The position numbers and the translations under genes are program-made. Below are positions 15,728-32,009 of a stretch of DNA of 64,000 nt, piece by piece (within the stretch, counting starts at the first letter, position 1; the number at the start of each line of letters is the position of its first letter). Origin of the DNA: Arenibacter sp. 6A1 (GTDB lineage: Bacteria; Bacteroidota; Bacteroidia; Flavobacteriales; Flavobacteriaceae); NCBI RefSeq assembly GCF_012272855.1, contig NZ_JAAXCQ010000003.1, positions 1 to 64,000 on the forward strand, in the 5' to 3' direction. The notes below the pieces were generated by a model. It was not told the DNA's origin, made no database searches, and was given only the letters and a program-made list of their open reading frames with translations.

Positions 15728-16102
15728 ATGTCAAAAAATGTAATTTTAACTACCGGGATATACGATATGATTAAAGATCATGTTCGAAGAAAAAAAGTAA
15801 CCAAACAAGAAGAAGAACTATTACTTTTAGAATTAAAAGAGGCCAAACAAGTATTTAGACGAGACTTACCTAATGATATTGTTACGGTAAACCGACGTGT
15901 AGTAATTAAAGATTATACGGAAAACAAAGAAAAAGAATATATGTTTGTGTCAACCACTAAAACAAACAATAAAAAAGGAAAATTATCTATTTTATGCGAT
16001 GTTGCCGTTGCCACAATTGGTAGACAGGTAGGCGATATAATAAATTGGCCTTTTAAGGATGGGGAAAGAAAACTAGAAATTTTAAAGGTTGAAAATATTT
16101 AG
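15728..16102 (+). CDS. GreA/GreB-family C-terminal domain protein
   Basis: 124 residues. The second half (RVVIKDYTENKEKEYMFVSTTK ... ILCDVAVATIGRQVGDIINWPF) matches the GreA/GreB/Rnk C-terminal FKBP-like domain that contacts RNA polymerase. The N-terminal part is a short helical region (KDHVRRKKVTKQEEELLLLEL), not the full coiled-coil finger of GreA with its acidic tip. It may bind RNA polymerase without transcript-cleavage activity, as Rnk does; this is inference. A strong terminator follows. Confidence 0.8.
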   Translation: MSKNVILTTGIYDMIKDHVRRKKVTKQEEELLLLELKEAKQVFRRDLPNDIVTVNRRVVIKDYTENKEKEYMFVSTTKTNNKKGKLSILCDVAVATIGRQVGDIINWPFKDGERKLEILKVENI

Positions 16103-16120
16103 CCATACCATCAAAAAAAT

Positions 16121-16161
16121 AAAAAAGAGTCTTTGTTTTAATAACGCAAAGGCTCTTTTTT
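16121..16161 (+). terminator. Intrinsic terminator after the Gre-like gene
   Basis: aaaaaagagtctttg pairs with caaaggctctttttt, with one mismatch, and a U-rich tail follows. Confidence 0.85.
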
Positions 16162-16774
16162 AATTTTCTAGGTACAATTAATATACTTTCAGGCTATGAA
16201 AAGGGAAATCTCACTTTATTCTGAAGCCAACAATTAATTAAATATATTTTATCACAATAATTTTTTACCAATAGATCATTCTATGAAATTTATATTTGAT
16301 AAATGGTTATTGAGTATTATATCTTACATTCTGTTCTTAATCGGAATTATATAGTACCCTAATCCGGAATAAAAAAACTACTGGCAATAAAGAGCTGAGG
16401 TGATAAACAATACTTTTCTACATTCATTTTTGACATTATTATTCTAGGCTACCTATACAGATGCACCCGTTTGGAACAAGTCGTAATGTCGCTTAATTTT
16501 TTTGATTGGTTCGCTGTAGATGTACTTGGAATTAATAAAATAATGGAGCATTTCACTGGTCGCAAAAAATAACTTTGACATTTTTGTAATAGCTTAAAGA
16601 TTATTTGTTGGATGAAAGATTACGACTACCAACATTCTGTATAACTAATTACTTCTAGACTACTTACGAAAATCCACGGATTTTCTATTCGGTTCTTATT
16701 TGCTAAATTAGGTGTTTAAAACAAGCAACACACCATATACAATTACCATAGTAACAATTTAAGAGCGGCAATAA
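16162..16774. other. Spacer carrying repeat ends shared with 19215-19586
   Basis: No gene is seen. Positions 16384-16424 (gctgaggtgataaacaatac core) and 16676-16724 (ctattcggttcttatttgct core) match 19215-19254 and 19541-19586. The interiors differ. It could be a decayed mobile unit or spacer class with conserved ends. Confidence 0.55.
16384..16724 (+). repeat. Spacer element with conserved ends, copy 1
   Basis: The left ~40 bp and right ~48 bp match the element at 19215-19586; the ~250-bp interior does not clearly match. Both copies lie directly before a + strand gene. Confidence 0.6.
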
Positions 16775-17851
16775 ATGAATAAACAAAGGCGAATATTACT
16801 TTCATTTGCATTTATTACGTTTTTAGCATATTCTGGTTTTTCGCAGCGTCAACAGAATTTTGAATATTCAAGTCCAGAAAGTTCAGGTTTTTCAACTGTA
16901 AAGCTTGACTCACTTTCGAGGTTTCTAACTAGTGCAGGATCTTCATCACTAGTCTTATTAGTGGATGGTAACATAATTTTTGAGTGGGGAAAGACGGATT
17001 ATAGACATACCATTCACTCTATAAGAAAACCACTTATAAGTGCGCTCTATGGAATTTATGTTGGCAGAGGTATAATTGATACTACTGCAACCTTAAAAGA
17101 CTTGAATATTGATGATATTATACCAAGTCTTTCAGAAAAGGAAAAATCAGCTAGAATTATTGATTTGTTGAAATCAAGGTCAGGAGTTTATCACGATGCT
17201 GCTGCAAACTCAAGTGGAATGGTTTCAAATAGACCCGAAAGAGACGAATTTATACCGAATGAAAACTATTTTTATAATAATTGGGATTTTAACGTTTTGG
17301 GAGCAATTCTAGAACAAGCCACAGGAAAAAGTGTGTTTGAACTTTTTAAAACTGAAATTGCCTATCCAATTGGTATGAATGACTATTTGGGTGAATACTC
17401 CCAAATTGATGGTGAAGATGAAAATACAAGGATTCCTAATGTAGATGGATTTTATCAATATGAAAAGAGCAAATCAAATTACCCAGCCTATCATTTTAGG
17501 CTTTCAGCTAGAGATATGGCTAAATTTGGACAACTATATCTCAACAATGGTAATTGGAAAGGAAAGCAAATAATTCCAAAATCTTGGATTGAAGTAAGTA
17601 CAAAAGCCTATTCTGTAACAAATCCAGGATATGGAATTGGTTATGGAATGATGTGGTTTGTTCTTATGGAAAACGAGTTTAGGAAAGGTGCATCCTTTTA
17701 CCATACAGGAAAAAATGTGCATATGTTAGGAATATATCCTTCTTCCAAAGTTGTTTTAGTTCATAGAGTGGATACAGAGAAAAAACACACATTTAACCAA
17801 AATGATTTTTATAAAATGATCGAATTGGTTTGGGATTCAAAAGTAGAATAA
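16775..17851 (+). CDS. Serine hydrolase, class C beta-lactamase fold
   Basis: 358 residues with a Sec signal peptide (about 1-23, ending GFSQ). The catalytic set is complete: SxxK as S82-I-R-K85, the Tyr motif Y167-N-N169 in NWDFNVLG context, and the third motif H310-T-G312. This is the family of DD-peptidases, esterases and class C-like enzymes. The HTG third motif is common in esterase-like members, so the name beta-lactamase should not be read as resistance. Periplasmic. Single-gene unit. Confidence 0.88.
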   Translation: MNKQRRILLSFAFITFLAYSGFSQRQQNFEYSSPESSGFSTVKLDSLSRFLTSAGSSSLVLLVDGNIIFEWGKTDYRHTIHSIRKPLISALYGIYVGRGIIDTTATLKDLNIDDIIPSLSEKEKSARIIDLLKSRSGVYHDAAANSSGMVSNRPERDEFIPNENYFYNNWDFNVLGAILEQATGKSVFELFKTEIAYPIGMNDYLGEYSQIDGEDENTRIPNVDGFYQYEKSKSNYPAYHFRLSARDMAKFGQLYLNNGNWKGKQIIPKSWIEVSTKAYSVTNPGYGIGYGMMWFVLMENEFRKGASFYHTGKNVHMLGIYPSSKVVLVHRVDTEKKHTFNQNDFYKMIELVWDSKVE

Positions 17852-17970
17852 GCTACTGACATTGTATGTGAAATCACGGCACCCTACGGAATGCTACGCC
17901 TTATATACGATCTGTTGGCAGTACTTAGACAAAGTTGAAAATAACCATTATTTAGAATTGAATAAATAAT

Positions 17971-18399
17971 ATGAAAACAAAAACATTTTTAACTTTTGTA
18001 GGCGACCAATGCGGAAAGGCTGAGGAAGCGATAAACTTTTACACTTCCATCTTTCCGAATTCTAAAATTAAAATTATAATAAATTACTCCGAGGGAGAGG
18101 CAGGAGGTACACCTGAACTAATTAAATATGCAGTATTTACATTAAATGGAACTGATTATTTGGTTTCTGAAAGTAATTATAATCATGCTTGGTCATTTAC
18201 ACCTGCAGTTTCAATTTTTATAAGTGACAATTCTGATGATGTGATACATACACTTTTTGAAAAACTTTCTTCAAACGGTGGACAGGTAATGGTTCCTTTA
18301 GACAACTACGAAGGTGATGGGGATTACGGATTTGGTAAGAAGTTTGGATGGTGTCAAGACAAATATGGTATATCCTGGCAATTTGTACTTACTGAATAA
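17971..18399 (+). CDS. VOC family protein, PhnB-like
   Basis: 142 residues. TFLTFVGDQCGKAEEAINFYTSIFP at the start and GWCQDKYGISWQFVL at the end are hallmarks of the PhnB/3-demethylubiquinone methyltransferase-like branch of the VOC superfamily (PF06983). Cytosolic. The substrate is unknown; family names implying methyltransferase activity are historical. It is preceded by a spacer with a ttatatacgatctgttggca motif (17901-17920). Confidence 0.88.
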   Translation: MKTKTFLTFVGDQCGKAEEAINFYTSIFPNSKIKIIINYSEGEAGGTPELIKYAVFTLNGTDYLVSESNYNHAWSFTPAVSIFISDNSDDVIHTLFEKLSSNGGQVMVPLDNYEGDGDYGFGKKFGWCQDKYGISWQFVLTE

Positions 18400-18570
18400 C
18401 TAATTATGAGCAAACTATCGAAATAGAAAATTATTACTGCCAACTATATGTATTTTTGGTAGGGAAGGTCTTTATGATGTAGGCAGCAATAGAGGGATAA
18501 TTTCCAAATTTCAATTTGATGAATATGTTAGATTAGTACAACTACCATTAAACGATAACCATAAGACATC

Positions 18571-19197
18571 ATGCGAATAATAATATTCCTTATATTTTTA
18601 TCCATTTTAGCACCAATATTTAACGGCTGCAATAAGACTCAAGAAAAAACAGGACTTGAGGCTATAAATGCGTACGTAGAAAACAATGTCAACAACATAA
18701 GATATGACATTAGGATATTTGATCCGCCACCCCCTCCAGAATGGCAAGACAGCCTAAAACATAACGGTAGGACAAGACCAGATTCTGTGATTAAGCACCT
18801 AAAGCCACTTAAAGTTTATGTGACTATAGATATAGAATACGATTCAGCTTTTATTTCGGATTTAAAACCTGTCAAGGGATTTAGTTTTGTTAAGGACATT
18901 AAACCGTATAAGGCTTCCCTATCTTTGGATAGCACTTCTTTTTCTAAAAAACAGGGAATAATTTTGGAGTTCTTATCCAGAAAGGATTTTTTTTTAAAAC
19001 ACGAAAGGATACAACATGAAGAGGACTATGGCGGTATTGTAAGTTTTAGGAATTTGATTTGTTCCGTAGATGGCAGTAGGGCCGTGTTTGAAGTTTCATA
19101 TTTTAAAGGAAAGTTGAACGCAAGTACAGCTATTGTATATGCCGAAAAACAGGATGGGACTTGGATATTTCATTCTAAGCCAATATCCATATCTTAA
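18571..19197 (+). CDS. Hypothetical lipoprotein
   Basis: 208 residues. A lipoprotein signal peptide (MRIIIFLIFLSILAPIFNGC, lipobox Cys 20) is followed by a ~185-residue soluble domain. The sequence contains a Pro-rich stretch (FDPPPPPEWQ) and a C-terminal beta region ending AIVYAEKQDGTWIFHSKPI, which resembles the end of NTF2-like or nuclear-transport-fold lipoproteins. The family is not recognised with confidence. Confidence 0.65.
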   Translation: MRIIIFLIFLSILAPIFNGCNKTQEKTGLEAINAYVENNVNNIRYDIRIFDPPPPPEWQDSLKHNGRTRPDSVIKHLKPLKVYVTIDIEYDSAFISDLKPVKGFSFVKDIKPYKASLSLDSTSFSKKQGIILEFLSRKDFFLKHERIQHEEDYGGIVSFRNLICSVDGSRAVFEVSYFKGKLNASTAIVYAEKQDGTWIFHSKPISIS

Positions 19198-19676
19198 CTA
19201 TTTATACTAGCCACAACAAAGTGCTGAGGTGAAAAACAATACTTTTCTGCATTTAATTTGAGTCCTGTTTACCCTTTGGCTATTTCGAAGCTACCATGTA
19301 CATCAAGACATCCGTATTGATGTCAACTCCAAAAGATTTTTTATCTTTATTAGTAAGAACTAATTTAGGCAAGGACATTCTACTTTACTCACAACAACTT
19401 GAAAACCAGATGTAAGTTCTCACAGAACTGAAGGTGGTACAAGGGGTAATAGACGGAGAGAGACTTATTAATGTTGTCGAAGTTTTTAGCTTCCTTGAGT
19501 ATGATTAATTATTTGGATCTGAATTCCTTAAGAAAATTATCACGGAGTTTCTATTCGGTTTTTATTTGCTAAATTAGTTACTTAACCACGCAATTAACGA
19601 TTCACAAGCCTACAGGCAACAATTATGGAATAAGTAATTTTAAATTATTATAGAAATTTTATAAAAAAATTAATCT
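19198..19676. other. Spacer containing element copy 2
   Basis: It holds the conserved-end element at 19215-19586 and no supportable gene. The 90 bp before the MscS start are AT-rich. Confidence 0.55.
19215..19586 (+). repeat. Spacer element with conserved ends, copy 2
   Basis: Its ends match 16384-16424 and 16676-16724; the interior is divergent and slightly longer (372 versus 341 bp). Confidence 0.6.
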
Positions 19677-20699
19677 ATGCTAAACTATTTACTTTTAATT
19701 CAAAGTACACCCAAGGACGAAAAAGGCGTATTGGATGTAAACCCACAATCTATCATTGAAAAATTGGATACTTGGTTGGACGGGTTAATTAAAGCCATAC
19801 CAAATATTCTAATAGGATTAGCAGTATTTATCGCTATGCTCTATTTAGGACGTTGGCTTGGGCGGTTAGTAAAGCGTATTTTAAAAAATAAGGGGCGTCA
19901 AAATTTTGGCGACTTGCTCGGTGCCTTTACGAGGTATATTGTTGTTATTTTTGGCCTTGCCTTATCGTTGACCATAATGGCACCAAACTTAAGTCCGGCC
20001 GATTTAATTGCCAGCTTGGGTGTTTCATCGGTAGCTATTGGCTTCGCATTTCAAGATATTTTACAAAACTGGTTGGCTGGTATTCTAATACTACTTCGAC
20101 AACCATTTGAACTTGGCGACCAAATTGTGGTGAACAATTACGAAGGTACGGTGGAAAAGATTAAAACCCGAGCCACAATCATCATCACGTATGACGGTAG
20201 GCGTGTAGTAATCCCTAACAATACTGTTTACAATAGTTCTGTGGTTGTAAATACCGCACACGAATTTATTCGCTCACAATATGATGTAGGTCTAGGATAT
20301 GATGAAAATTATATGGAAGCGATGAAAATTTTAAAAGAAACCATTGAAAAGGTAGAAGGCGTGACTTCAGAAAAACCAGTTGAAACTTTAGTTTGGGACC
20401 AATCTGACAGCTGGTTAACAATCCGTGTTCGTTGGTGGACAAAAAGTGATCGAGCCAGTGTGGTACACGTATGGTCAAAAGTTTTACACGATACTCAAAA
20501 AGCAATGGAAGATGCTGGTATAGACTTGCCATTCCCAACGCAAGTAGAAATTCAGAATGCACACGACTTAAAAGAGGCTAGACAAGATATGGAAAGAAAA
20601 TTCAATACCGATAAAAAGGTGAAATCGAAACGAGCCAAGGAAATTGAAAAAAAGGAAGCAGAAAATAATTCCGATGACCAAGGGAAGAAAAGCGAATAA
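19677..20699 (+). CDS. Small-conductance mechanosensitive channel (MscS family)
   Basis: 340 residues. Three transmembrane helices lie at about 39-60, 80-100 and the pore-lining TM3 at about 110-145. TM3 contains the conserved pore pattern ASLGVSSVAIGFAFQDILQNWLAGILILLRQPF that precedes the beta domain (GDQIVVNNYEGTVEKIKTRATII). The C-terminal ~50 residues are highly charged (KRAKEIEKKEAENN). It gates in response to membrane tension and releases osmolytes on hypo-osmotic shock. The product is well formed and probably functional. Confidence 0.92.
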   Translation: MLNYLLLIQSTPKDEKGVLDVNPQSIIEKLDTWLDGLIKAIPNILIGLAVFIAMLYLGRWLGRLVKRILKNKGRQNFGDLLGAFTRYIVVIFGLALSLTIMAPNLSPADLIASLGVSSVAIGFAFQDILQNWLAGILILLRQPFELGDQIVVNNYEGTVEKIKTRATIIITYDGRRVVIPNNTVYNSSVVVNTAHEFIRSQYDVGLGYDENYMEAMKILKETIEKVEGVTSEKPVETLVWDQSDSWLTIRVRWWTKSDRASVVHVWSKVLHDTQKAMEDAGIDLPFPTQVEIQNAHDLKEARQDMERKFNTDKKVKSKRAKEIEKKEAENNSDDQGKKSE

Positions 20700-20780
20700 A
20701 TCCAATAAAAAGAATGGTTTAATAGAACAATATATGAATGACATTTATTGTAATCGTTGCTACAAATGAAATTGGCTAAC

Positions 20781-20834
20781 TGGGCAAAACTGCTTCGCTG
20801 CGGACGCCTTGGTTAAAACAAAATGAAAGCATAT
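20781..20834 (+). repeat. 54-bp spacer repeat, copy 2
   Basis: The partner of 1957-2010, nearly 19 kb away, again in the 3' half of a spacer before a + strand gene. Confidence 0.8.
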
Positions 20835-20898
20835 ATGATAAGCTTGTAAGCAAGCGTTAAACTCCGAACGACCACGGAAAATAATTAAAAAGTATTAT

Positions 20899-21375
20899 AT
20901 GAGATATTCAATTTTTACTCTATTTATGTTAGCCCCTCTATATTTATCTGCCCAAAGTTCCGATTATTCCGTTTCCTCCTATCTTACGGAGGGTACGAAG
21001 GCACCCAATACGCATTATATTGGAGAAGCTTGGTTGAATGCCATCATTCATGATGATGCCGACTTGGGTTATAACATAACGAAAGCAACCTTTAGAGCCA
21101 ACTCCACCCTGGATTGGCATAAACATAGTTCTGTACAGGTTTTAATAATTGTAGAAGGTAAAGCCTATTATCAGGAGAGAGGAAAAGAACCTGTAATACT
21201 GAAAGAAGGTGACGTAATTAAATGTGGCAAGGATATCGAGCATTGGCATTCCTCTACCAAGGACAGTGATGTAACGTATATGGCCTTCTATGGCGGTGAC
21301 CAGCCTACTATTTGGACAGAGGTACTAACACAAGAGTATTATGATAAGGTGGCTGACAAGCTAAAATGTGACTAA
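20899..21375 (+). CDS. Secreted cupin-domain protein
   Basis: 158 residues. A signal peptide (about 1-18, ending LSAQ) is followed by a single cupin barrel. The metal-ligand motif is WHKH (H74, H76) with Q80, and the second motif has EHWH (H115, H117). Single-domain cupins of this kind are found in small carbohydrate- or quercetin-related proteins; the substrate cannot be told from the sequence. Periplasmic, presumably metal-binding. Confidence 0.82.
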   Translation: MRYSIFTLFMLAPLYLSAQSSDYSVSSYLTEGTKAPNTHYIGEAWLNAIIHDDADLGYNITKATFRANSTLDWHKHSSVQVLIIVEGKAYYQERGKEPVILKEGDVIKCGKDIEHWHSSTKDSDVTYMAFYGGDQPTIWTEVLTQEYYDKVADKLKCD

Positions 21376-21573
21376 TGATGACCAAAATTGTTCAGGATGT
21401 ATATTCGATTTAAAGTATACCAGCGTACAATAACGGCTATAATTCATTGCGATATCATGCAAAAAACAACAATAAGGATTACTAAACGGCCTGATTCCAT
21501 CAGTAGAAATGTCTACGACGTTCCCCACAACGAAATGATAGCTTAGAAGCTGTAAGAATTGTTTAGAAATTAA
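21376..21573. other. Spacer with GGCTATAATT motif
   Basis: acggctataattcattgc at 21433-21450 is the spacer opening motif. No gene is seen. Confidence 0.55.
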
Positions 21574-22368
21574 ATGGATAAAACGATATTTGAAATTGCC
21601 AAAATGGACTGTCCTTCAGAGGAAAATCTTATCCGAATGAAATTGGACGGAATTTCAAGTATTGCGAATTTGGACTTTGACATTCCGAACCGAAAATTGA
21701 CTATTTTTCACAGCGGAGAAATAGACCAAATCGAACAGTCGGTTATCGAACTGAATTTAGGCGGAAAAAAAATCTCGACCAGACAGACCGACCAAACGGA
21801 ATTTAAAGAAAATGAAAGCCAAAAAAAGCTACTTTGGTCTGTACTTGCAATCAATTTTGCATTTTTCATAATCGAAATGACCACAGGAATTATATCAAAA
21901 TCTATGGGACTTGTTGCCGATAGTCTAGATATGCTTGCCGACAGTTTCGTTTACGGAATTAGTTTGTTTGCCGTTGGTGGAACATTAATCAAGAAAAAAC
22001 GGATTGCAAAACTTGCCGGATATTTTCAAATTACACTTGCGATTCTCGGATTTCTAGAAGTTTTAAGGAGATTTTTCGGAGACGAGAAACTTCCGAATTT
22101 TTCGACTATGATTATCGTGTCGATTTTTGCTCTTTTTGCAAACGGAATTTGTCTTTATATTTTACAAAAGTCAAAGAGCAAAGAAGAGGCACATATGAAA
22201 GCGAGTATGATTTTTACCTCGAATGACGTGATTATAAATTTAGGTGTTATAATTGCAGGGGTTTTGGTCAATTGGTTGAGTTCCAATAAACCTGATTTGA
22301 TTATAGGAACGATCGTTTTTATTTTGGTAATTCAAGGGGCCATTCGGATATTGAAATTGAGCAAGTGA
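21574..22368 (+). CDS. CDF-type cation transporter with N-terminal HMA-like domain
   Basis: 264 residues. The first ~65 (MDKTIFEIAKMDCPSEENLIRMKL...) resemble a heavy-metal-associated fold. They are followed by about five or six membrane segments from residue ~88 on. The motif GLVADSLDMLADSFVYG matches the TM2 region of cation diffusion facilitators; a second Asp-containing helix (SNDVIINLGVIIAG) supplies the other site. Several usual His ligands are replaced by Asp, so the metal is uncertain; zinc, cobalt or cadmium export is the family's role. Confidence 0.82.
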   Translation: MDKTIFEIAKMDCPSEENLIRMKLDGISSIANLDFDIPNRKLTIFHSGEIDQIEQSVIELNLGGKKISTRQTDQTEFKENESQKKLLWSVLAINFAFFIIEMTTGIISKSMGLVADSLDMLADSFVYGISLFAVGGTLIKKKRIAKLAGYFQITLAILGFLEVLRRFFGDEKLPNFSTMIIVSIFALFANGICLYILQKSKSKEEAHMKASMIFTSNDVIINLGVIIAGVLVNWLSSNKPDLIIGTIVFILVIQGAIRILKLSK

Positions 22369-22527
22369 GCTAAAAAAACTACTTACAATATAATGGAACT
22401 AAAATAACGAAGTATTCAACTACGTCCGAATCTATTTGAAAATGCAAAAGATTGTTCAAAAACGAAAAATTAACGCCTAAATGACGATTATATGAGAGCG
22501 TTATGTGCAGCTAAAAAATTGAAATAA

Positions 22528-22872
22528 ATGGGAAATACTACCATAGATATAAATGAATCTTCAATAAAAAATTTCATTGAATCGCTAAGACCAGAAGATC
22601 CTGATATTAGAAAAAAACTCGATTTCGGCTATTCCTATGATGGGAAAACAGCTATACTTTATGAAATCAGACCTTTTTGGGATAATCCAGAAGAGATACT
22701 AAACATTGAGTTTGCAAAAATCAGATTTTATAAATCTCGAAAAGAATGGAATTTATATTGGATGCGTGCAAGTGGAAAATGGCAACTGTACGGACCGTTT
22801 CCGAAATCAACCTATATAGAAAAGATAATTAATGTTATAAAAGAAGATGAATACGGTTGCTTTTTTGGATAA
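22528..22872 (+). CDS. DUF3024 family protein
   Basis: 114 residues. The signatures EIRPFWDNPEE, AKIRFYKSRKEWNLYWMRASGKWQLY and the end EDEYGCFFG are those of DUF3024 proteins, small cytosolic proteins of unknown function scattered across bacteria. There are no signal or membrane segments. Single-gene unit. Confidence 0.8.
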   Translation: MGNTTIDINESSIKNFIESLRPEDPDIRKKLDFGYSYDGKTAILYEIRPFWDNPEEILNIEFAKIRFYKSRKEWNLYWMRASGKWQLYGPFPKSTYIEKIINVIKEDEYGCFFG

Positions 22873-23060
22873 TCACTACAAAAATATCATCAAGAATATT
22901 GCCCAAGAATTAGATTGCTGATTTAACTGCTATTTCAATTTAAGAACAGAGGAAATGCAAATGGCTGTAGCTAGGGTAGAAGCAATTAGTAAATATATAT
23001 CCTAGGGTCGAATAGCAAGATTTAGGAGAGGAAATAAATTGAAGGAGATAGTGACAAGCA

Positions 23061-23294
23061 GAATATGTCCGTTTCGGCATACTTGGTGTCGGGTTTTTCT
23101 TAGCCTCCTTTACGGCTCTCGCACAAGCGGTAAAAGGTTTCGATCTCTCCATTGCCTATGCAATTTGGGGCGGCACAGGTCTCTTATTTACTACCATAGC
23201 CGGAATTATACTTTTTAAACAAAAGCTTACTAAAATCGGATGGATAGGTGTTGTTTTGATGGTAGGAGGGATACTGCTATTACGACTATCCTAA
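23061..23294 (+). pseudogene. SMR efflux transporter, C-terminal fragment
   Basis: The frame reads FFLASFTALAQAVKGFDLSI, then AYAIWGGTGLLFTTIAGIILF, ending VVLMVGGILLLRLS. This is helices 2-4 of a small multidrug resistance/EmrE-like protein, including the AYA.W.G motif of helix 3. In-frame stops at 23040, 23049 and 23052 cut it off, and helix 1 with its essential Glu is missing. It cannot be functional as seen. Confidence 0.75.
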
Positions 23295-23417
23295 GGGAGG
23301 TATCCAACTTTTTTTTTTGGAATCATAAAATGGCCCATTTAAATCAGTTAACCTAAAATAAATGTCAAGAAACCCTTGAGTCACATCTTAATAGGTTTTT
23401 TATAAAGTATTATTTAG
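23295..23417. other. Region upstream of the tyrS leader
   Basis: An AT-rich stretch with no gene, ending in the tyrS leader promoter. Confidence 0.4.
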
Positions 23418-23425
23418 TAGCTTTG
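23418..23425 (+). promoter_or_regulatory. Promoter -7 element of the tyrS leader
   Basis: TAGCTTTG is an exact match to the Bacteroidota -7 consensus TAnnTTTG. No good TTG is found 19 bp upstream. Transcription would start around 23430, only a few bases before the leader ATG (23434). Confidence 0.6.
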
Positions 23426-23433
23426 CACCAGAA

Positions 23434-23535
23434 ATGAAATTTTTGAACAGCATATTACGTCTTCCATTTTTCAGCACTTATTATTATACTCTAATAATAT
23501 CTGCTCGGAATGGTTATATATATACTTCAAATTGA
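23434..23535 (+). CDS. tyrL: Tyrosine-rich leader peptide of tyrS
   Basis: A 33-codon ORF: MKFLNSILRLPFFST, YYY, TLIISARNGYIYTSN, stop. Three consecutive Tyr codons sit at 23479-23487, with two more at 23515 and 23521. It lies between a TAnnTTTG promoter and an intrinsic terminator just before tyrosyl-tRNA synthetase. The segment TGCTCGG (23502-23508), 14 nt after the YYY run, is complementary to the terminator's left arm (CCGAGCA, 23570-23576). A ribosome stalled at YYY would leave it free to form an antiterminator. The symbol is descriptive. The reading is by analogy with trpL/pheL-type attenuation and not demonstrated. Confidence 0.7.
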   Translation: MKFLNSILRLPFFSTYYYTLIISARNGYIYTSN

Positions 23536-23564
23536 TTTAAAAAACAATAAATAGTAACATCATT

Positions 23565-23596
23565 AAAGCCCGAGCATTTGCTCGGGCTTTTTTTTT
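23565..23596 (+). terminator. tyrS attenuator terminator
   Basis: A perfect 11-bp stem aaagcccgagc/gctcgggcttt with an attt loop, followed by a further six T residues. It ends 13 nt before the tyrS ATG, so it cannot serve a distant upstream gene without also being read by transcripts entering tyrS. Together with the Tyr leader it forms an attenuator. Confidence 0.85.
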
Positions 23597-23609
23597 ATTT
23601 AAAAATGAA

Positions 23610-24815
23610 ATGGATACAGTAGACAAATTAAAAGAAAACGTAGAAATTATATTTCCAGAGAACGGCTTAAAGGAAAAATTGGAACAATCCGAAAAAGACG
23701 GAAAGAAGCTAATTATTAAACTTGGTTTTGACCCAACGGCACCAGATTTACACTTGGGACATGCCGTTGTACTTAAGAAAGTAAAACAATTTCAAGATTT
23801 AGGGCATCAAATTGTTATTTTGGTTGGAGATTTTACAGCTAGAATAGGAGATCCAACAGGGAAAAATAAGAGCCGTAAACCTTTGAGTAATGACGAAGTG
23901 TTGTTGAATGCTGAAACGTATATTACGCAGCTATCCAAGATAATTGATGTAAATAAAAGTAAAATAGTTTTTAACTCAGAGTGGTTGGACAAGCTTTCTT
24001 TTTCTGAAATTATCCAAATTTTATCTAAAGTTACCGTTGCTCAGTTGATGCACCGAAACGACTTTAACAAGCGGTTCTCCGAAAACTCCCCTATAGCCAT
24101 GCACGAGCTTGTATATCCTATATTACAAGGTTTTGACTCCATAAAAGTTAACTGTGACATAGAAATGGGCGGCACGGACCAGCTTTTTAACTGTACAATG
24201 GGAAGGCAGTTACAGCAAACTTATGGAACTAGTCCACAAACTGTCATGTGTATGCCACTATTAAAGGGGTTAGACGGTAAGGAAAAAATGAGTAAATCCT
24301 TAAATAATATCATAGGCTTAACAGACGTGCCCAATGAAATGTTTGGTAAGACAATGTCCATACCCGATACCTTAATTACAGAATTTTTAGATTTGACAAC
24401 TGACTTTTCTGCCGAGGAAAAACAAGCGTTAAAAGTCCGCTTGGCAAACGGAGAAAACCCTATGGGCCTTAAAAAAATTATTGCAAAAAACATAATTACG
24501 CAATACCATAATAAGGAAGCAGCACAACAAGCCGAGGACTTTTTTACGAATCAATTTCAAAACAAAAAATTTGAAGAAAAAGTATTTGAACCTGTTTTAC
24601 TTGAATCCATTGAATCTGAAAACGGAAGCATTAATTTAATTGATTTATGTATCCATTTAAAAGACGATTTGAGTAAATCTGCCATGAGAAGACTCATTGA
24701 AAGCGGAGCCGTTCAGATCAATAACGAAAAGATAACAGATGCTTACATACATATTCCACTAGAAAAGGAAACTAAGATTAAAGTGGGAAAAAGAAATTTT
24801 TATGAATTAAAATAA
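23610..24815 (+). CDS. tyrS: Tyrosyl-tRNA synthetase, second (TyrZ-like) type
   Basis: 401 residues. Class I signature HLGH (48-51, HIGH equivalent), the tyrosine pocket region IEMGGTDQLFNCTMG, KMSKS at 226-230, and a C-terminal S4 RNA-binding domain (about 335-400). The GFDPTAPDLHLGH opening and ~400-residue length place it with the TyrZ/second bacterial type rather than the ~430-residue type (...GIDPTADSLHIGH...) that I expect as the housekeeping enzyme in this family. It may therefore be a second, acquired copy. ATG 23610 is chosen for homology; an ATG at 23605 is out of frame. It is preceded by a Tyr attenuator. Confidence 0.93.
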   Translation: MDTVDKLKENVEIIFPENGLKEKLEQSEKDGKKLIIKLGFDPTAPDLHLGHAVVLKKVKQFQDLGHQIVILVGDFTARIGDPTGKNKSRKPLSNDEVLLNAETYITQLSKIIDVNKSKIVFNSEWLDKLSFSEIIQILSKVTVAQLMHRNDFNKRFSENSPIAMHELVYPILQGFDSIKVNCDIEMGGTDQLFNCTMGRQLQQTYGTSPQTVMCMPLLKGLDGKEKMSKSLNNIIGLTDVPNEMFGKTMSIPDTLITEFLDLTTDFSAEEKQALKVRLANGENPMGLKKIIAKNIITQYHNKEAAQQAEDFFTNQFQNKKFEEKVFEPVLLESIESENGSINLIDLCIHLKDDLSKSAMRRLIESGAVQINNEKITDAYIHIPLEKETKIKVGKRNFYELK

Positions 24816-25151
24816 TAAATCCAGCCAGGACCAAAGTTGTGTAAAACTATTTCTTTGAATTGGCCTATAGCGGGTGTCCGACACGGAAGGTAGACATGCA
24901 GGGTACACTAGTTCTGTCGGTAAAATTTGGTACGAGTTTTGCTAATTCTTCATCTGCAGCACATCAGCGACTTTAATGTGGCGAGGCATTATTTGAAAGC
25001 GTAGCGAACCGGCCCATGGAAGGCCGTTATCTATGGTGCTGGGCAAGGGAAGGGTAGAAACTCCTTTTCCTACTCGGCCAATAATCGTTGGTGGTCATGG
25101 CTAGAACAACGGGAGAAACAATTAAATATTAATAATAATTATAAAAAGAAA
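24816..25151. other. Spacer between tyrS and MliC-like gene
   Basis: No gene is seen. It is more GC-rich than its neighbours, with several short inverted repeats such as gggtgtccgacacgg and an aatcgttggtggtc motif near the right end that resembles the gttggca ends of other spacers. Confidence 0.45.
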
Positions 25152-25730
25152 ATGGCAAAAAACATTTTGACAATGGCAGTGCTAACAGCATTATTTTTAA
25201 ATTCTTGTAAAGAATCACCAAAGCAAGAAAACGCAGCAACGACCACCACAGAAACTGTTGAAAAAGTTACTGACGAAATTGTCAATATTTCATCAACTGA
25301 CAAGGACGGAAAAAAAATAAAAATTTCATATAACAACACAAAAGAAACTGCTACTCTAAATTTTAACGGAGAAACTATTGAATTGGTTAGTCAAAAACCT
25401 GCCTCGGGAATTTGGTATAAAAACGACCGTTATGAATTAAGTGGAAAAGGAAACGATATTGAATTAAAAAAAGAAGGAAAAGTAGTTTTTACTCATGAAG
25501 ACGATATTGTAAAAACTTCACTGAGAAATAAGGAAGGTCAAACTCTTGATATGACTTTTAACAACACAACAAATCAGGTAAAAGTTTATGTAAACGGAGG
25601 CGAACAAATAGAATTGGTTGGTCAAATATCTGCCTCGGGAATTTGGTATAAAAATGACCGTTATGAATTAAGGGGGAAAGGTGAAAACCTTGAATTGACC
25701 GAAGACGGAAAAACAATATTTAAAAATTAA
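25152..25730 (+). CDS. Two-domain MliC-like lipoprotein
   Basis: 192 residues with a lipobox (AVLTALFLNSC, Cys 19). After a Thr-rich linker come two copies of an MliC-type beta domain (about 45-115 and 120-192), each with the motif SGIWYKNDRYEL followed by GKG.., ending KVVF and KTIF. MliC proteins are membrane-bound inhibitors of C-type lysozyme. Most have a single domain, so this is a tandem duplication. Lysozyme inhibition is known for the family and inferred here. Cell envelope. Confidence 0.82.
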   Translation: MAKNILTMAVLTALFLNSCKESPKQENAATTTTETVEKVTDEIVNISSTDKDGKKIKISYNNTKETATLNFNGETIELVSQKPASGIWYKNDRYELSGKGNDIELKKEGKVVFTHEDDIVKTSLRNKEGQTLDMTFNNTTNQVKVYVNGGEQIELVGQISASGIWYKNDRYELRGKGENLELTEDGKTIFKN

Positions 25731-26389
25731 AACTCCACTTTGTAAACATAAGAAGTGTCAGGACCGACGAAAGGTCCATTGTCAAAACCTGGTAGATGGA
25801 GCGGCTATTTTTTTATGTTATTATTAAGGAATTATAGATCTTTCTCCAAAGGATGTTTTAATTCAACAAAGTATCATTCATTGAGCCGATTAGGACAACT
25901 GATCGGCTCATTTTTTTGCCATAACTGAGCCGAATACGGCTAGAAATTGGCCTACATGCTATAGAAGTGGGGCAGGGGCCTAATAGCTAAATCTTTAGTG
26001 AGGTAGGCCTTATTGATAATGGGGTGCTCTTCTTAATAGTTAGAATAAATTGAATGTCTCCCCATTTTTATTTCATGAATTCTGCTTTAAGTGACCCAAG
26101 GATGGTATTTTATCCTAATTCATGCGAATTGGTCGGGTATTTTTTGTGGTTCTCATAGCTAATAGTACCTTTTTTTTATTTAATAATCCATACCAGCCAT
26201 ACTTACCGATCGAAAACCTTATTGCAAAAACTACCGAACCTAGTAAACAAAGCTATTTGTTCTAGTATCTTGGGAGGTATTCCTAAGTGTTGGTAGGGTT
26301 CTGGAGAATTAGAAGGAACGTAATAGCCTCCTTTAATACAATAGGATGAATACTTTATTATTGTATAATTAATATAAAATACCAAGAAA
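25731..26389. other. Intergenic region, right edge of accessory stretch
   Basis: No supportable gene is seen. It includes a ggacc/ggtcc hairpin near 25770 and the terminator at 25882-25917. The rest is AT-rich without recognisable signals. Confidence 0.5.
25882..25917 (+). terminator. Intrinsic terminator
   Basis: tgagccgat and atcggctca form a perfect 9-bp stem followed by seven T residues. Confidence 0.85.
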
Positions 26390-26677
26390 ATGACGCAAAA
26401 ACCTACTTTTTGGATAGTTGTATTAGCGGTGGTGATCCTAGCTTTTGGCGTAGGCATTTATCTTCAGGACATACAACACCAGAAAAGCACAAAAGCCGCA
26501 TGGCAAGCCAATCGTTTTAATATTACGAGATTTGATAAAATTATGAAATATGCCGCCGAAATGGATGCTGAAAATTGGTCCATGATGCGAGATAGTATCG
26601 GAATGCAACTAGATAGTCTGATGATTTTAAGATTTAGGAAGGAAAAGGACAGTTTGGATGCCCTTAAGAAAAAATAA
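26390..26677 (+). CDS. Hypothetical single-pass membrane protein
   Basis: 95 residues. One N-terminal transmembrane helix (about 7-26, FWIVVLAVVILAFGVGIYL) is followed by a charged, probably helical domain (FNITRFDKIMKYAAEMDAE ... RFRKEKDSLDALKKK). No recognised family. Confidence 0.6.
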   Translation: MTQKPTFWIVVLAVVILAFGVGIYLQDIQHQKSTKAAWQANRFNITRFDKIMKYAAEMDAENWSMMRDSIGMQLDSLMILRFRKEKDSLDALKKK

Positions 26678-26843
26678 TCCTATCATGTAGTTGGATAGTT
26701 CTAGACAATACTCGGAAAAGGGTATTCCTATATATGGCCGGCTGCTATTTTTCTTATGTAAGATGGGCAAATAAACACAACTAGTACTCCGGTTGGTTAG
26801 CTTGCCAAGCTTATAAGTATAGTAATTCTACAGAACCCTTGGC

Positions 26844-26972
26844 TTACTTAAAGAAACCAAAGGCGGCCAAAATAAGACAAATAACTACCGATACCAAAAT
26901 GATGACCAAAACCACTACCATAAGGCTAAGGAATCCGTTAAGCACCTTAGTACCAAAAGAAAGATCTTTCAT
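26844..26972 (-). CDS. 42-residue single-helix membrane peptide
   Basis: The frame opens MKDLSFGTKVLNGFLSLM, continues with an unbroken run of Val, Ile and Leu from about residue 17 to 38, and ends AAFGFFK. This is one transmembrane helix with a positively charged C-terminus. It is too short for usual ORF cut-offs. I have no family to offer; the clean membrane-helix pattern argues against chance. Confidence 0.5.
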   Translation of the reverse strand: MKDLSFGTKVLNGFLSLMVVVLVIILVSVVICLILAAFGFFK

Positions 26973-27286
26973 ACGTTAAGATTTTACTACAATTTAGGGA
27001 ATATTTGTTTAATAATTTGCAGTCCTCTTTCCAATTCGTTTAAATGTTCTACAAATAAGATGTTTTTAGGTTAAGTGGTAAGCTTAATGGATAAAATACT
27101 GAAAACGAGGCATTCTTTAGAAGGCGGCAGCTTATGGAGAGAACGGTCGTGGTATTTGCAAAGGTGCTTAGTTACTACGGCTGCAAATGAGTTAATACAT
27201 AATGTTAAACCCCCTTCTTAGAAAAAGAATGGTCGCACTAAACTTAATTGTCGCCTGTCTATATTAGAATCTCTAACTAATAAGTC
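26973..27286. other. Intergenic region downstream of waaA
   Basis: No gene, clear terminator or repeat is seen. Confidence 0.4.
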
Positions 27287-28528
27287 CTACTGCTCCATTA
27301 TAGTGCCAATGTAATTCATGATTTGGGTGCTTGCTCCCATATTACGGTTCACATAACTGCTGTTGATGCTTCCTGTAGTTTTCAAATAATCAGCGTCTTT
27401 TATAAAGCTATCCAAGATTTTTGCGAAGTCGGCCTTGTTATTTGTTGTTAATACCCCTTTTAGGGCCACCAATTCCTCGGCTTCTTTAAAGCCCTGGTAG
27501 TGCGGTCCTATAATTACCGGGATGCCAAATGCAGCGGGTTCCAAGGTATTGTGCAAGCCCGTAGCATAGCCGCCACCGACATATCCGATATCTGCATAAC
27601 TATATATTTTGGTCAGTATCCCAATAGTGTCTACAATCAATACCTCAAATTCTGATAAGTCCTGAGTGCCGATTTGGCTATACAATATTGTTTTCCTTTG
27701 TATAGATGCCGCCAAATTATGAATGTGGTCTTCTTTTATATTATGGGGGGCCAATACATATTTTATGGAAGCATTGCTTGAATTGATATAGGGGACGATA
27801 GCTTCTTCGTCCTCGGGCCAAGTACTGCCGGCCACAAAAGTGCTGCCGTTGTTTTTAAAGGCTTCCATAAACGCCAGTGAATTGTCTCTTTGGAGAATTT
27901 CGCCCACCCGGTCAAACCTAGTATCGCCACCAATGGCCGTATTGGTTAATTGAATGTTTTTAAGTGCCGTTATGGACTGTTGGTCCTGAACAAAAATAAA
28001 GGAGAAATTTCGCAGGGCCTCTCGCATAAATCCGCCATAAGGTTTAAAGAATATCTGTTTTTTCTTAAAAATCGCGGAGATAAGTAGCGTCGGTACCTGA
28101 CTTTGTTTTAGTGCGTTCAAATAATTGGGCCAAATTTCGTATTTCACAAATATGGCTAGTTCGGGACGTACAATTTTTAGAAACTTGGCAACATTCGCTT
28201 TGGTATCCATAGGAAGATAGGTTACCAAATCTGCGGCAGTAGTATTTTTTTTAACCTCATAACCAGAAGGGGAAAAAAAGGTCACTAAAATTTTATGGGA
28301 AGGATATTTCTTTTTTAATCGTTCTATAATAGGGAGCCCCTGTTCAAATTCGCCCAAGGAGGCGGTATGTATCCATAGAATATGGTCGTCAGGTAAGATA
28401 TGGCTGTTTAGATAAGAAAACACGGTCTTTCGACCTTCTGTGAAAAGTTTGATTTTGGGATGGAACAAGGCTATCAATCGCAAAAAAAAGGAACTTATCT
28501 GTATGGCTATATTATATATGGTAAACAC
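27287..28528 (-). CDS. waaA: 3-deoxy-D-manno-octulosonic acid transferase
   Basis: 413 residues, the normal length for KdtA/WaaA. It transfers KDO from CMP-KDO to lipid A precursor at the inner membrane. An N-terminal hydrophobic anchor (about 5-22) is followed by the GT-B fold: ILWIHTASLGEFEQGLPIIERL, VTFFSPSGYEV, GGDTRFDRV, the donor-site region GYVGGGYATGLHNTLEPAAFGIPVIIGP. It is divergent from the DegT aminotransferase gene with a ~97-bp gap. Confidence 0.93.
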   Translation of the reverse strand: MFTIYNIAIQISSFFLRLIALFHPKIKLFTEGRKTVFSYLNSHILPDDHILWIHTASLGEFEQGLPIIERLKKKYPSHKILVTFFSPSGYEVKKNTTAADLVTYLPMDTKANVAKFLKIVRPELAIFVKYEIWPNYLNALKQSQVPTLLISAIFKKKQIFFKPYGGFMREALRNFSFIFVQDQQSITALKNIQLTNTAIGGDTRFDRVGEILQRDNSLAFMEAFKNNGSTFVAGSTWPEDEEAIVPYINSSNASIKYVLAPHNIKEDHIHNLAASIQRKTILYSQIGTQDLSEFEVLIVDTIGILTKIYSYADIGYVGGGYATGLHNTLEPAAFGIPVIIGPHYQGFKEAEELVALKGVLTTNNKADFAKILDSFIKDADYLKTTGSINSSYVNRNMGASTQIMNYIGTIMEQ

Positions 28529-28625
28529 ACTAATTTCGTTTGGGGCTAAAATACACTTCTTTAAATAATATCCATTAGCTGCGAATCCTTATTTTTGTAA
28601 TATTATTTTTGAATAAATACTGACG

Positions 28626-29780
28626 ATGAAGAAAATACAGATGGTAGACCTTAATGGGCAATACCAAACTATAAAAGAACAAGTAAACGATTCTATTGCC
28701 AATGTTTTGGAGACTTCTGCCTTTATCAACGGGCCCGAAGTACATGCCTTTCAAAAAGAATTGGAAGACTATTTGGGGGTAAAACACGTTATTCCTTGTG
28801 CCAATGGTACAGACGCTTTGCAAATAGCCATGATGGGATTGGGATTAAAGCCTGGGGACGAGGTTATCACTGCCGATTTTACATTCGCAGCAACAGTAGA
28901 GGTTATAGCCTTGTTAAACCTGACTCCGGTTTTGGTTGATGTAGAGCTAGATAGTTTTAATATAGATCCGGTTGCCTTGGAAAAGGCCATTACCCCAAAA
29001 ACAAAGGCTATTGTACCCGTACATTTATTTGGACAATGTGCCAATATGGATGCTATTATGGAAATAGCAGAAAAACATAACCTATATGTTATAGAAGACA
29101 ATGCACAAGCTATAGGGGCTAGCTATACCCAAAAGGATGGCAGTAAGAAAAAGGCCGGTACTTTTGGTCATGTAGCAGCGACTTCCTTTTTCCCTTCTAA
29201 AAACTTAGGTTGTTATGGCGATGGTGGGGCTATTTTTACCAATGACGATGCCTTGGCGCATACGTTAAGGGGGGTTGTAAATCATGGGATGTACGAACGT
29301 TACCATCACGATGTTGTTGGGGTAAACTCTAGGTTAGATTCTATCCAAGCCGTTGTTTTACGAGCAAAATTACCGTTGTTAGATCAGTATAATAAAAGCC
29401 GTAGAGAGGCAGCAGAGAAATATTCTAAGGCCTTGGCAGGACATAATAATATTATAGTGCCTACATTGGTGAATACTTGTGCTACACAATGTGAGAATTG
29501 CGATTGCCATGTCTTTCATCAGTATACCCTGAGGATTACCAACGGACAAAGAGATGCTTTGGTAAAGCACTTGGGGGAACTTCAAATACCATGTGGGGTG
29601 TACTATCCTATTCCATTGCACCTGCAAAAGGCATATTTGGATGAACGATATAAGGAAGAAAATTTTCCGGTAACCAATCAATTGGTAAAAGAAGTAATCT
29701 CCTTGCCGATGCATACAGAATTAGACGATGAACAAATAGCATATATCACATCGACCATCCTGGCGTTCGTTAATCAATAG
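28626..29780 (+). CDS. DegT/DnrJ/EryC1-type PLP aminotransferase
   Basis: 384 residues. The PLP-lysine K192 is in SFFPSKNLGCYGDGG. Other family motifs are GTDALQIAMMGLGLKPGDEVI, VDVELDSFNID and IEDNAQAIGA. The family aminates keto-sugar nucleotides for surface polysaccharides and glycans. An unusual Cys cluster, CATQCENCDCH, lies at about 281-291, in the region before the C-terminal fold; such clusters occur in some Bacteroidota members. It lies 109 bp upstream of galE, suggesting joint work in nucleotide-sugar supply. Confidence 0.9.
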   Translation: MKKIQMVDLNGQYQTIKEQVNDSIANVLETSAFINGPEVHAFQKELEDYLGVKHVIPCANGTDALQIAMMGLGLKPGDEVITADFTFAATVEVIALLNLTPVLVDVELDSFNIDPVALEKAITPKTKAIVPVHLFGQCANMDAIMEIAEKHNLYVIEDNAQAIGASYTQKDGSKKKAGTFGHVAATSFFPSKNLGCYGDGGAIFTNDDALAHTLRGVVNHGMYERYHHDVVGVNSRLDSIQAVVLRAKLPLLDQYNKSRREAAEKYSKALAGHNNIIVPTLVNTCATQCENCDCHVFHQYTLRITNGQRDALVKHLGELQIPCGVYYPIPLHLQKAYLDERYKEENFPVTNQLVKEVISLPMHTELDDEQIAYITSTILAFVNQ

Positions 29781-29889
29781 TCACGGATCGGTTTTTTCCA
29801 TTCAATAGCTAAGGTTATAAAAATTGAAGCCTTTTTGGACAGGAATGGTATGCTTTAAAGTTATAAGTAATTTAATAGATATATTATAA

Positions 29890-30906
29890 ATGAAAATACT
29901 AGTTACAGGAGGATTGGGATTTATTGGTTCCCATACAACGGTAGAATTACAGAACAAAGGGTTTGAAGTGGTCATTATAGACGACCTTTCAAATTCGACA
30001 GAAAAGGTATTGGACGGTATCGTGGCCATTACTGGTAAAAAGCCGATTTTTGAAAAACTGGATTTAAAGGAAAAATCTAAGGTCGAGGATTTTTTTAAAA
30101 GACATCAGGATATTGCAGGGGTCATTCATTTTGCCGCTTCTAAGGCTGTAGGAGAAAGTGTAGAAAAACCGTTGCTATATTATGAGAACAATATAGGTAC
30201 CCTTGTGTACTTGTTAAAAGAGCTTTCTAAAAAAGAGAAGGCTAGTTTTATATTTAGTTCTTCTTGTACAGTATACGGTCAGGCAGATAAAATGCCGATT
30301 ACAGAAGACGCTCCGGTAAAAGCAGCAGAGTCTCCTTATGGGAACACCAAGCAAATCGGAGAAGAGATCATTCAAGAGACCTGTAAGGTTACTCCGGCTA
30401 TAAACGCCATAGCCCTTCGATATTTTAACCCAATGGGAGCGCATCCTTCCACGGAAATAGGGGAATTGCCAATAGGGGTACCACAGAATTTAGTGCCTTT
30501 TATCACGCAAACAGGAGCAGGGATTAGAGAGCAAATAGCGGTCTTTGGAGGAGATTATCCTACAGAAGACGGTACCTGTATTCGCGATTATATTCATGTG
30601 GTCGATTTGGCAAAGGCCCATGTAGTGGCTTTAGAAAGGCTGTTGAATGCTAAAAATGAAGAAAATTACGAGGTTTTTAATGTGGGTACCGGAAAGGGTA
30701 GTTCTGTATTGGAGGCAATTCAAAGTTTTGAAAGGGTTTCGGGCAAAAAACTTAATTATAAGATTGTCGATAGAAGACCTGGAGATATTATGACGGCGTA
30801 TGCCGATACTACCAAAGCAAATAATGTTTTAGGATGGAAAGCCCAATCTACGCTAGATGAAGCTATGAAATCGGCTTGGTTGTGGGAACAAAAAATTAGA
30901 AAGTAA
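29890..30906 (+). CDS. galE: UDP-glucose 4-epimerase
   Basis: 338 residues, the family norm. The Rossmann NAD motif GGLGFIGSH (about 7-15), the SSSCTVYG region, the catalytic YxxxK (YGNTK) and the substrate region ALRYFNPMGAHPS are all present. It interconverts UDP-glucose and UDP-galactose in the cytosol, feeding polysaccharide synthesis. A strong terminator follows. Confidence 0.95.
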   Translation: MKILVTGGLGFIGSHTTVELQNKGFEVVIIDDLSNSTEKVLDGIVAITGKKPIFEKLDLKEKSKVEDFFKRHQDIAGVIHFAASKAVGESVEKPLLYYENNIGTLVYLLKELSKKEKASFIFSSSCTVYGQADKMPITEDAPVKAAESPYGNTKQIGEEIIQETCKVTPAINAIALRYFNPMGAHPSTEIGELPIGVPQNLVPFITQTGAGIREQIAVFGGDYPTEDGTCIRDYIHVVDLAKAHVVALERLLNAKNEENYEVFNVGTGKGSSVLEAIQSFERVSGKKLNYKIVDRRPGDIMTAYADTTKANNVLGWKAQSTLDEAMKSAWLWEQKIRK

Positions 30907-30913
30907 AAATCGC

Positions 30914-30948
30914 AATGCCTCTTTCTATTGGAAAGGGGCATTTTTTTT
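30914..30948 (+). terminator. galE terminator
   Basis: aatgcctctttc and gaaaggggcatt form a stem with a tattg loop, followed by a T tract. Confidence 0.85.
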
Positions 30949-31057
30949 GCCTTTTAGCGAGTGTTGATCCCGTTGCAAATCAACAAGGAGTTTTTTTATA
31001 AAAAGTATAGTTGATAAGTTTTTTGATCCGTTTAAGGGTATAGCCCGTAGATTATAT

Positions 31058-31414
31058 ATGGTTGTAAATTTCCCAAATAGTTCCGAGCTCTTAAGCCATA
31101 TTGTGGCCGAAAAGTTGTACCAAAACTTGGTAGCACAATTGCAAAAAGATTTTGGATTGGCCAATGTTTTTATAGATATCTCTGCTGAGATATCCCCAAA
31201 AGACTTAAAGACGTTGGTACATGAAAAGGTATATTATCTTATTCTAGAAAAATTTACCGACTACTTAAATCTTTTGTATATTATAGATGTATCTGAGAAG
31301 GCGATTAAAGGAATTAATGCTACCGATGTAGTAGAGATTTCGGAGCAGGTAACTTTTGAAATTCTAAAACGAGAGTGGCAAAAGGTATGGTTCAAGAATA
31401 AATATAAGTCTTAA
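31058..31414 (+). CDS. Hypothetical cytosolic protein
   Basis: 118 residues with no signal or membrane segment and a mixed alpha/beta pattern (NFPNSSELLSHIVAEKLY, FVDYL-like FTDYLNLLYIIDVSEKAI, EISEQVTFEILKREWQKVW). It looks like a conserved small protein of Flavobacteriaceae, but I cannot name the family. Same strand as galE but separated by its terminator. Confidence 0.65.
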   Translation: MVVNFPNSSELLSHIVAEKLYQNLVAQLQKDFGLANVFIDISAEISPKDLKTLVHEKVYYLILEKFTDYLNLLYIIDVSEKAIKGINATDVVEISEQVTFEILKREWQKVWFKNKYKS

Positions 31415-32009
31415 CAATAAACGCAACCAAGGGCATTGTTAAAGATTCTTTTATGGCCCTTTTACAAGACCTTGTGCCAATCTGCTTACATTACACATAG
31501 CAATCTGTGGCTGAGACATGTAAAAAAGGCAGGAGGTTAATTGAGGTATTGATAATTTTCCCAACAAACACAGGAGTCCTGCGTTTTATAGCCGGTTCTA
31601 ATGCTAGGCGGCCCTCTTTTTTAGGGGTGAGATAACACAACCCTTTAAGCTTACCGATAGAGGTTCTTAACTTTGTGTACGAAAAATGGGTGTAATAAAA
31701 AAGGCTCTCTTTTTAGACCTTCCAAAAAGGATATTAGCGGCATTAAATGAGTAAGGGTCAAACCTTAGGCTAAAACTTTCGACGAATTGAACTTTATTTC
31801 AAAAAGAGGGATTGTGAAGTTTTCCTTTGGTACACATAATAGTTGTTAAAAGGCTAAAGAACAGTGAAGAAAAAGGTATTTTGGGTAAGAGTAATCCACT
31901 TTTTATGAATATTATAAAAATTTTCTATTATTAATACCTAAGATAAGCTTAGATATCTTAAATGTTGTATTTTTGAATAAATTTTGTTCAAAAGACAGAG
32001 AGAATTTTC
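31415..32009. other. Intergenic region upstream of sucA
   Basis: aagggc/gcccttt arms (about 31430-31465) could terminate the preceding gene. TATTTTTG at 31968-31975 fits the TAnnTTTG -7 consensus and is a candidate sucA promoter. No gene is seen. Confidence 0.5.

Follow-up and report, generated by a model that had tools for sequence, protein, structure and literature searches.

Ribosome-mediated attenuation of transcription is a classical mechanism. In Escherichia coli, the attenuators of pheST (pheM), trp, his and pheA follow a 1:2 / 2:3 / 3:4 logic of alternative RNA pairings. Such control of an auxiliary synthetase is known for TrpRS: the inhibitor-resistant enzyme of the trpRS1 type is reportedly under leader-peptide attenuation, with Trp-cognate codons in the leader and a terminator before the gene. 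The tyrZ gene of Bacillus subtilis is controlled by a T-box and a MarR-type repressor. Its product is an auxiliary TyrRS (PMC9437257, in part). The BmrB leader of bmrCD, also in B. subtilis, is a translated leader that controls transcription together with alternative stem-loops; according to the part of the article covered, it is induced by antibiotics targeting protein synthesis and controls a transporter, unlike the leader described here (PMC4191407). For Flavobacterium psychrophilum, clues to leader-peptide attenuation before amino acid operons and structured 5' UTRs of synthetases have been described (PMC9723704, in part). The Bacteroid-trp motif of Rfam is a leader before amino acid operons of Bacteroidota (PMC2864571, in part). 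Neither article names a tyrS leader in the text covered. In the main text of open-licence articles, no report of an attenuator before tyrS was found for Bacteroidota, which is no proof of absence. An earlier note on this DNA had called such control little described in the phylum. Flavobacterial attenuation is not wholly undescribed (PMC9723704).

The locus analysed here belongs to tyrS2, a second tyrosine--tRNA ligase gene of Arenibacter sp. 6A1. It shares with the TrpRS system a second synthetase beside the housekeeping one, a leader peptide with cognate codons and a terminator before the gene. Phylum, amino acid and gene differ, and at tyrS2 conservation of the leader peptide extends over four families, on an mRNA that is probably near-leaderless. 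Like the E. coli attenuators, the tyrS2 leader has its sensing codons inside region 1 and a terminator before the gene. It differs from them in that just two of its sensing codons are invariant, the 6-7 bp helix of the core is joined by a second helix, and conservation of the peptide extends beyond the sensing codons. Where B. subtilis tyrZ has a T-box and a repressor, tyrS2 has a leader ORF that would be translated.

The window, a stretch of 64,000 nucleotides of the 4.67 Mb genome, carries the locus at 23418-24815 with the following features.

23418-23425, plus strand: Bacteroidota-type -7 promoter element TAGCTTTG, 8 nt 5' of the leader ATG
23434-23535, plus strand: leader ORF of 33 codons, MKFLNSILRLPFFSTYYYTLIISARNGYIYTSN, with a counterpart in 81/81 tyrS2 loci
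23434-23484, plus strand: conserved part of the peptide, codons 1-17, MKFLNSILRLPFFSTYY
23464-23486, plus strand: region 1, left side of the protector 1:2, from the fold of the window
23479-23484, plus strand: Y16 and Y17, putative sensing codons, invariant across 81 loci
23492-23514, plus strand: region 2, right side of the protector, containing the antiterminator core TGCTCGG (23502-23508)
23559-23576, plus strand: region 3, partner of region 2, with CCGAGCA (23570-23576) pairing with the core
23565-23596, plus strand: intrinsic terminator 3:4 with 11 bp, a 4-nt loop and a T run
23610-24815, plus strand: tyrS2, auxiliary tyrosine--tRNA ligase of 401 aa (TIGR00234, E 2.2e-101; PF00579)

In the window, YYY forms codons 16-18 of the leader, which has two more Tyr codons. 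The core begins 14 nt past the Tyr run. The terminator hairpin AAAGCCCGAGC-ATTT-GCTCGGGCTTT spans 23565-23590 and is followed by the T run. The earlier note had listed the TAnnTTTG element, the Tyr-rich ORF, the complementary TGCTCGG, the terminator and tyrS, and all were found again as described. Added to it here are the identity of tyrS2 as a second tyrS, the conservation of the peptide and two RNA elements, namely the protector 1:2 and a second helix of the antiterminator.

In 3000 dinucleotide shuffles of 23291-23609, an ORF of 15-50 codons with YYY occurred 11 times, a terminator with nine perfect pairs never and both together never. Chance is ruled out by the conservation of leader ORF and terminator in all 81 tyrS2 loci. 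The terminator ranks first of the 10 terminator-like sites listed in 15000-32000, where shuffles give an expected 11.3 sites of any strength. Strong plus-strand terminator-like hairpins also lie at 25882-25910 and 30914-30942. Directly 5' of the leader, 23070-23295 is an open coding sequence without a start where one is expected, apparently a broken gene. By eye it looks like the final part of a membrane protein of the small multidrug-resistance (SMR) type.

The 81 loci comprise the window and the best 80 of 298 named relatives. Their organism labels are Flavobacteriaceae, Weeksellaceae, Sphingobacteriaceae and Hymenobacteraceae, with 42-44 loci from Chryseobacterium. The nearest of the best 80 of the 298 relatives is tyrS of Arenibacter nanhaiticus, 91% identical to the tyrS of the window. 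Each locus encodes a leader ORF, starting with ATG in 79 loci and with GTG and TTG in one each. The consensus of the peptide is MKxLNxILRLPFFSxYY with L8, P11, Y16 and Y17 invariant, and the leaders are 24-37 aa long. The third Tyr codon encodes Tyr in 37/81 loci and changed 14 times on the tree. A terminator-like hairpin precedes tyrS2 in all 81 loci. Loci with the terminator and without a Tyr-rich ORF, which would speak against the attenuator proposed in the earlier note, were looked for; all 81 keep the ORF.

TAnnTTTG is present in 53/81 loci, 5-9 nt 5' of the start codon in 52 of them and 15 nt in one, counting the last pattern match before the start codon. TAnnTTTA occurs in 20 further loci, and eight have another element or none. 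In most loci only a few nt separate this -7-like element from the start codon of the leader, and thus a near-leaderless leader mRNA, with transcription starting a few nt 5' of the ATG as the earlier note had predicted, is plausible.

Two genome surveys gave the same association. Of 376 genomes of the order, a sample not tied to the 81 loci, 22 encode tyrS2 (E <= 1e-140), and the leader accompanies it in 22/22; these genomes come from two genera only. Among 395 genomes of the phylum, tyrS2 (at least 72% identity) was found in three, and the next TyrS among the matches listed was at most 49% identical. The leader search of the same 395 genomes gave nine matches at E <= 0.01. Three were strong (E <= 1e-16) and are the three tyrS2 genomes; the other six were weak (E 0.0056-0.0077). 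Weak matches in the genus search start at E 0.02. The profile search of the genome of strain 6A1 gave a single match at E <= 10 and no second one. A general module using this leader scaffold was considered and rejected on the single match in the own genome and the restriction of strong phylum matches to tyrS2 genomes.

Strain 6A1 encodes another tyrosine--tRNA ligase, tyrS1, on a different contig, 31% identical to tyrS2. By eye, no leader was seen upstream of tyrS1. In 11 genomes searched for both genes, all eight with tyrS2 also have tyrS1, and the other three have tyrS1 only. The leader is present in 4/13 genomes of the genus. This co-occurrence and distribution identify tyrS2 as an auxiliary, patchily distributed gene beside a housekeeping tyrS1.

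The leader RNA can, as judged from sequence and folding, form a protector 1:2, an antiterminator 2:3 and a terminator 3:4. Protector and antiterminator are mutually exclusive and placed such that a stall at the sensing codons would free region 2. In the fold of the window, the protector consists of an inner helix (23479-23486 with 23492-23499), a short helix (23473-23476 with 23502-23505) and an outer helix (23464-23470 with 23507-23513). The core, G[C/U][U/C]CGG 3' of the Tyr codons, base-pairs with the terminator's left arm in 81/81 loci. Its second position is C:G in 38 loci and U:A in 43, with no mismatch. The core starts 13 nt after codon 17 in 47 loci, 15 nt in 32, 12 nt in one and 18 nt in one, the window. 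Across the loci it is read in two frames, and so its conservation is at the level of the RNA and not of the peptide.

A second antiterminator helix follows 3' of the core and differs between leaders of F-type and C-type. In the window's own fold it joins ATCATT (23559-23564) with AATGGT (23509-23514). In the per-type alignments (29/38 F-type and 29/39 C-type distinct sequences), core cells were paired in 98% of F-type and 100% of C-type, and second-helix cells in 69% and 92%, respectively. Slid partners as a control paired 22-45% of cells over the whole structure with all helices. The F-type protector pairs codons 13-17 with AAUAAUA and the core, each pair being kept in 33-35 of 35 sequences. 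The C-type protector pairs CCCG of codons 18-19 with CGGG of the core, each pair in 36-41 of 41. A further protector helix is suggested in C-type, where GUCUUCC of codons 9-11 matches GGAAGAC directly 3' of the core with 7/7 pairs in 33/43 loci (e.g., L063:1327-1419). This pairing, spotted post hoc, is the best of all offsets in C-type and weak in F-type.

The free energy of the duplex was -15.75 kcal/mol with own partners, -15.58 with same-type swaps and -12.0 with cross-type swaps. As good as the own partner were 355/2964 cross-type pairs and 538/15400 shuffles, and 30/77 leaders beat every cross-type partner. The window's own duplex, with a z-score of -1.4, is among the weaker ones.

The earlier note had proposed to test whether Tyr codons, complementary segment and terminator co-vary. 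The pairing of core and left arm held up in every locus; the Tyr run is conserved as two codons only, and covariation is limited to one deep change. Within F-type, antiterminator covariation measures were not above shuffles. In C-type the antiterminator signal was weak, with shuffles as high in 1/500 for cells paired, 6/500 for the covariation score and 82/500 for two-sided cells. The F-type protector was likewise weak (23/500 for cells paired, 14/500 for two-sided cells, 10/500 for the score), and the C-type protector had no informative variation (500/500 shuffles as high). The switch of the core from C:G to U:A is one change on the tree, which left one pair and no power for an independent-pairs test. 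A further two-sided change is found in a single locus, L043. The evidence for the pairings is thus conservation, one deep compensatory change, the change in L043 and G-U variants, and not many independent events. The median free energy was -19.9 kcal/mol for the terminator alone and -14.0 kcal/mol for the antiterminator. The terminator is the more stable, and the switch must therefore be kinetic, settled while the RNA is made.

We consider it likely that this leader acts by ribosome-mediated transcription attenuation, responding to the charging of tRNA-Tyr and thereby controlling the auxiliary, patchily distributed tyrS2. As expected for an attenuator, the leader ORF carries codons for the very amino acid that the downstream gene product uses, with Y16 and Y17 in 81/81 loci and tyrS2 downstream, and an intrinsic terminator lies between ORF and gene in 81/81. 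This supports the trpL/pheL-type logic put forward in the earlier note. From these parts and their conservation we infer that the promoter is used, that the leader is translated, that ribosomes stall on it and that tyrosine evokes a response. Transcription probably begins a few nt 5' of the leader ATG. At sufficient levels of Tyr-tRNA, the ribosome would pass codons 16-17 and region 1 would re-pair with region 2 behind it. Once near the leader stop codon, the ribosome may mask a portion of the second antiterminator helix; formation of the terminator 5' of tyrS2 would follow. With Tyr-tRNA in short supply, the ribosome would stall at codons 16-17 and occupy region 1, leaving the core free. The free core could then base-pair with the terminator's left arm, and transcription would continue into tyrS2. 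If the E. coli footprint applies, a ribosome whose A site holds codon 16 or 17 would extend roughly 7-10 nt past codon 17, occupying region 1 and leaving the core uncovered. The same assumed footprint disagrees with one step of the earlier note, in which a ribosome completing the leader covers the complementary segment: from the leader stop codon the core is not reached in 74/81 loci, the window included.

The small number of sensing codons speaks against attenuation; two invariant Tyr codons are few for a codon-counting sensor. In favour of it, a plain His leader (HHHHFH) with a terminator, seen by eye, precedes hisG in this genome, and the genus Arenibacter appears to use such attenuation control. 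This His leader (L202, G000:C11) reads MKNKNTHHHHFHTGHQAR and is followed by the terminator-like hairpin. TACTTTTA closely precedes it, making it a second candidate for a near-leaderless attenuator in this genome. By eye, no Phe leader was seen upstream of pheS in this genome.

A refinement compatible with the attenuator concerns the peptide. The nascent chain in the exit tunnel might hold or slow the ribosome at the two Tyr codons, giving a sharper response to low Tyr-tRNA or a response to another signal, e.g., a drug or a metabolite. We put this forward tentatively. Codons 2-17 have a pS of 0.656 and a pN of 0.108 (pN/pS 0.165), similar to tyrS2 itself (0.194). Codons 2-6 combine a pS of 0.855 with a pN/pS of 0.192. 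Codons 18-26 evolve freely as protein (pN/pS 0.88). As in arrest-peptide leaders of the TnaC, ErmC and BmrB type, the peptide is conserved at the protein level before the stall site, and a mere carrier peptide need not be conserved. The variability of the third Tyr also fits an assisted stall, as do the His leaders of two genera. In the genus of the window, HHHHF leaders precede hisG in 13/13 genomes and begin with MKN (MLN in one). In a second genus, taken to be Chryseobacterium because the coordinates of G284 and L060 match, MKPxFLxxHHYHHHLC precedes hisG in 11/16 genomes; the pattern was not found in the other five loci, one of them on a short contig. Little beyond the His codons agrees between these leaders, their scaffolds being unrelated, and the two genera share 65% identity in HisG (two comparisons) and 70-74% in TyrS2.

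The constraint may partly be on RNA. Codons 9-17 also take part in RNA pairings, and codons 7-10 have a low pS of 0.423 (pN/pS 0.10), so constraint on RNA or codons may add there. A comparison with known families, made in NCBIfam with three leaders and in Pfam with two, gave no match, and likeness to arrest peptides was compared only there. The simplest reading of the peptide conservation may be that the nascent chain has a role in stalling. In a two-layer sensor, which we offer as a conjecture, the nascent MKxLNxILRLPFFSx would act in the exit tunnel so that a sharp stall occurs at the two Tyr codons, and the ribosome halted there would flip the RNA switch. If true, codon-sensing attenuation and peptide-dependent arrest would be combined on one near-leaderless mRNA, with an RNA switch that stays with the spare TyrRS across Bacteroidota. 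It would require coupling of transcription and translation at the leader. The locus in any case poses the question why a throw-away leader peptide evolves as slowly as the enzyme.

The constraint on codons 2-17 would also suit a small protein with a function of its own, the terminator merely limiting tyrS2 expression. This is improbable. The unconstrained codons 18-26 and the varying length speak against it, as do the core-terminator pairing kept in 81/81 loci and the restriction of the leader, bar one decayed relic, to tyrS2 in the genomes searched. We give still less credence to a terminator that belongs to an upstream gene, with the leader as an unconnected short ORF. The degenerate coding sequence just 5' of the leader in the window could be read in this way, but the interval from 23300 to the leader contains no end of an intact gene. 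The upstream flanks also differ: 407/3240 locus pairs share 200 nt, none of them with the window, while leader and terminator stay. Direct binding of tRNA-Tyr by a T-box, the control of many Firmicutes tyrS genes, or by another RNA is the least credible reading, given a protein-coding constraint foreign to T-boxes, no Rfam leader match at the gathering score and one tRNA only in the window scan. The known amino acid operon leaders of Rfam were rejected as well. Their best match, Leu_leader, reached 34.4 bits with a gathering score of 50 and spans the terminator hairpin; 25 of 27 weak Rfam matches, all below gathering, span this hairpin.

The likely attenuator links control by tRNA charging to a spare, patchy synthetase, an arrangement known for the inhibitor-resistant TrpRS. 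Bacteroidota make little use of Shine-Dalgarno sequences. A well-conserved and easily tested case of attenuation in such a phylum makes transcription-translation coupling in Bacteroidota directly testable.

The gene may have moved. On a quick tree of the 81 TyrS2 proteins, two label changes are needed for Arenibacter and three for Gelidibacter, which suggests, without proving, transfer between lineages. The downstream flank of the window (24816-26312) has 613 nt in common with L003 and 586 nt with L009 (Oceanihabitans sediminis), and perhaps moved together with tyrS2. For the upstream flank, no counterpart was found among the other 80 loci. In the order, a 23rd leader lies on the minus strand of a genome with tyrS1 and without tyrS2 (L169, G476:C1:540400-540495, E 3.2e-5). 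It keeps the core and part of the terminator and is, by eye, a decayed relic of a Tyr leader.
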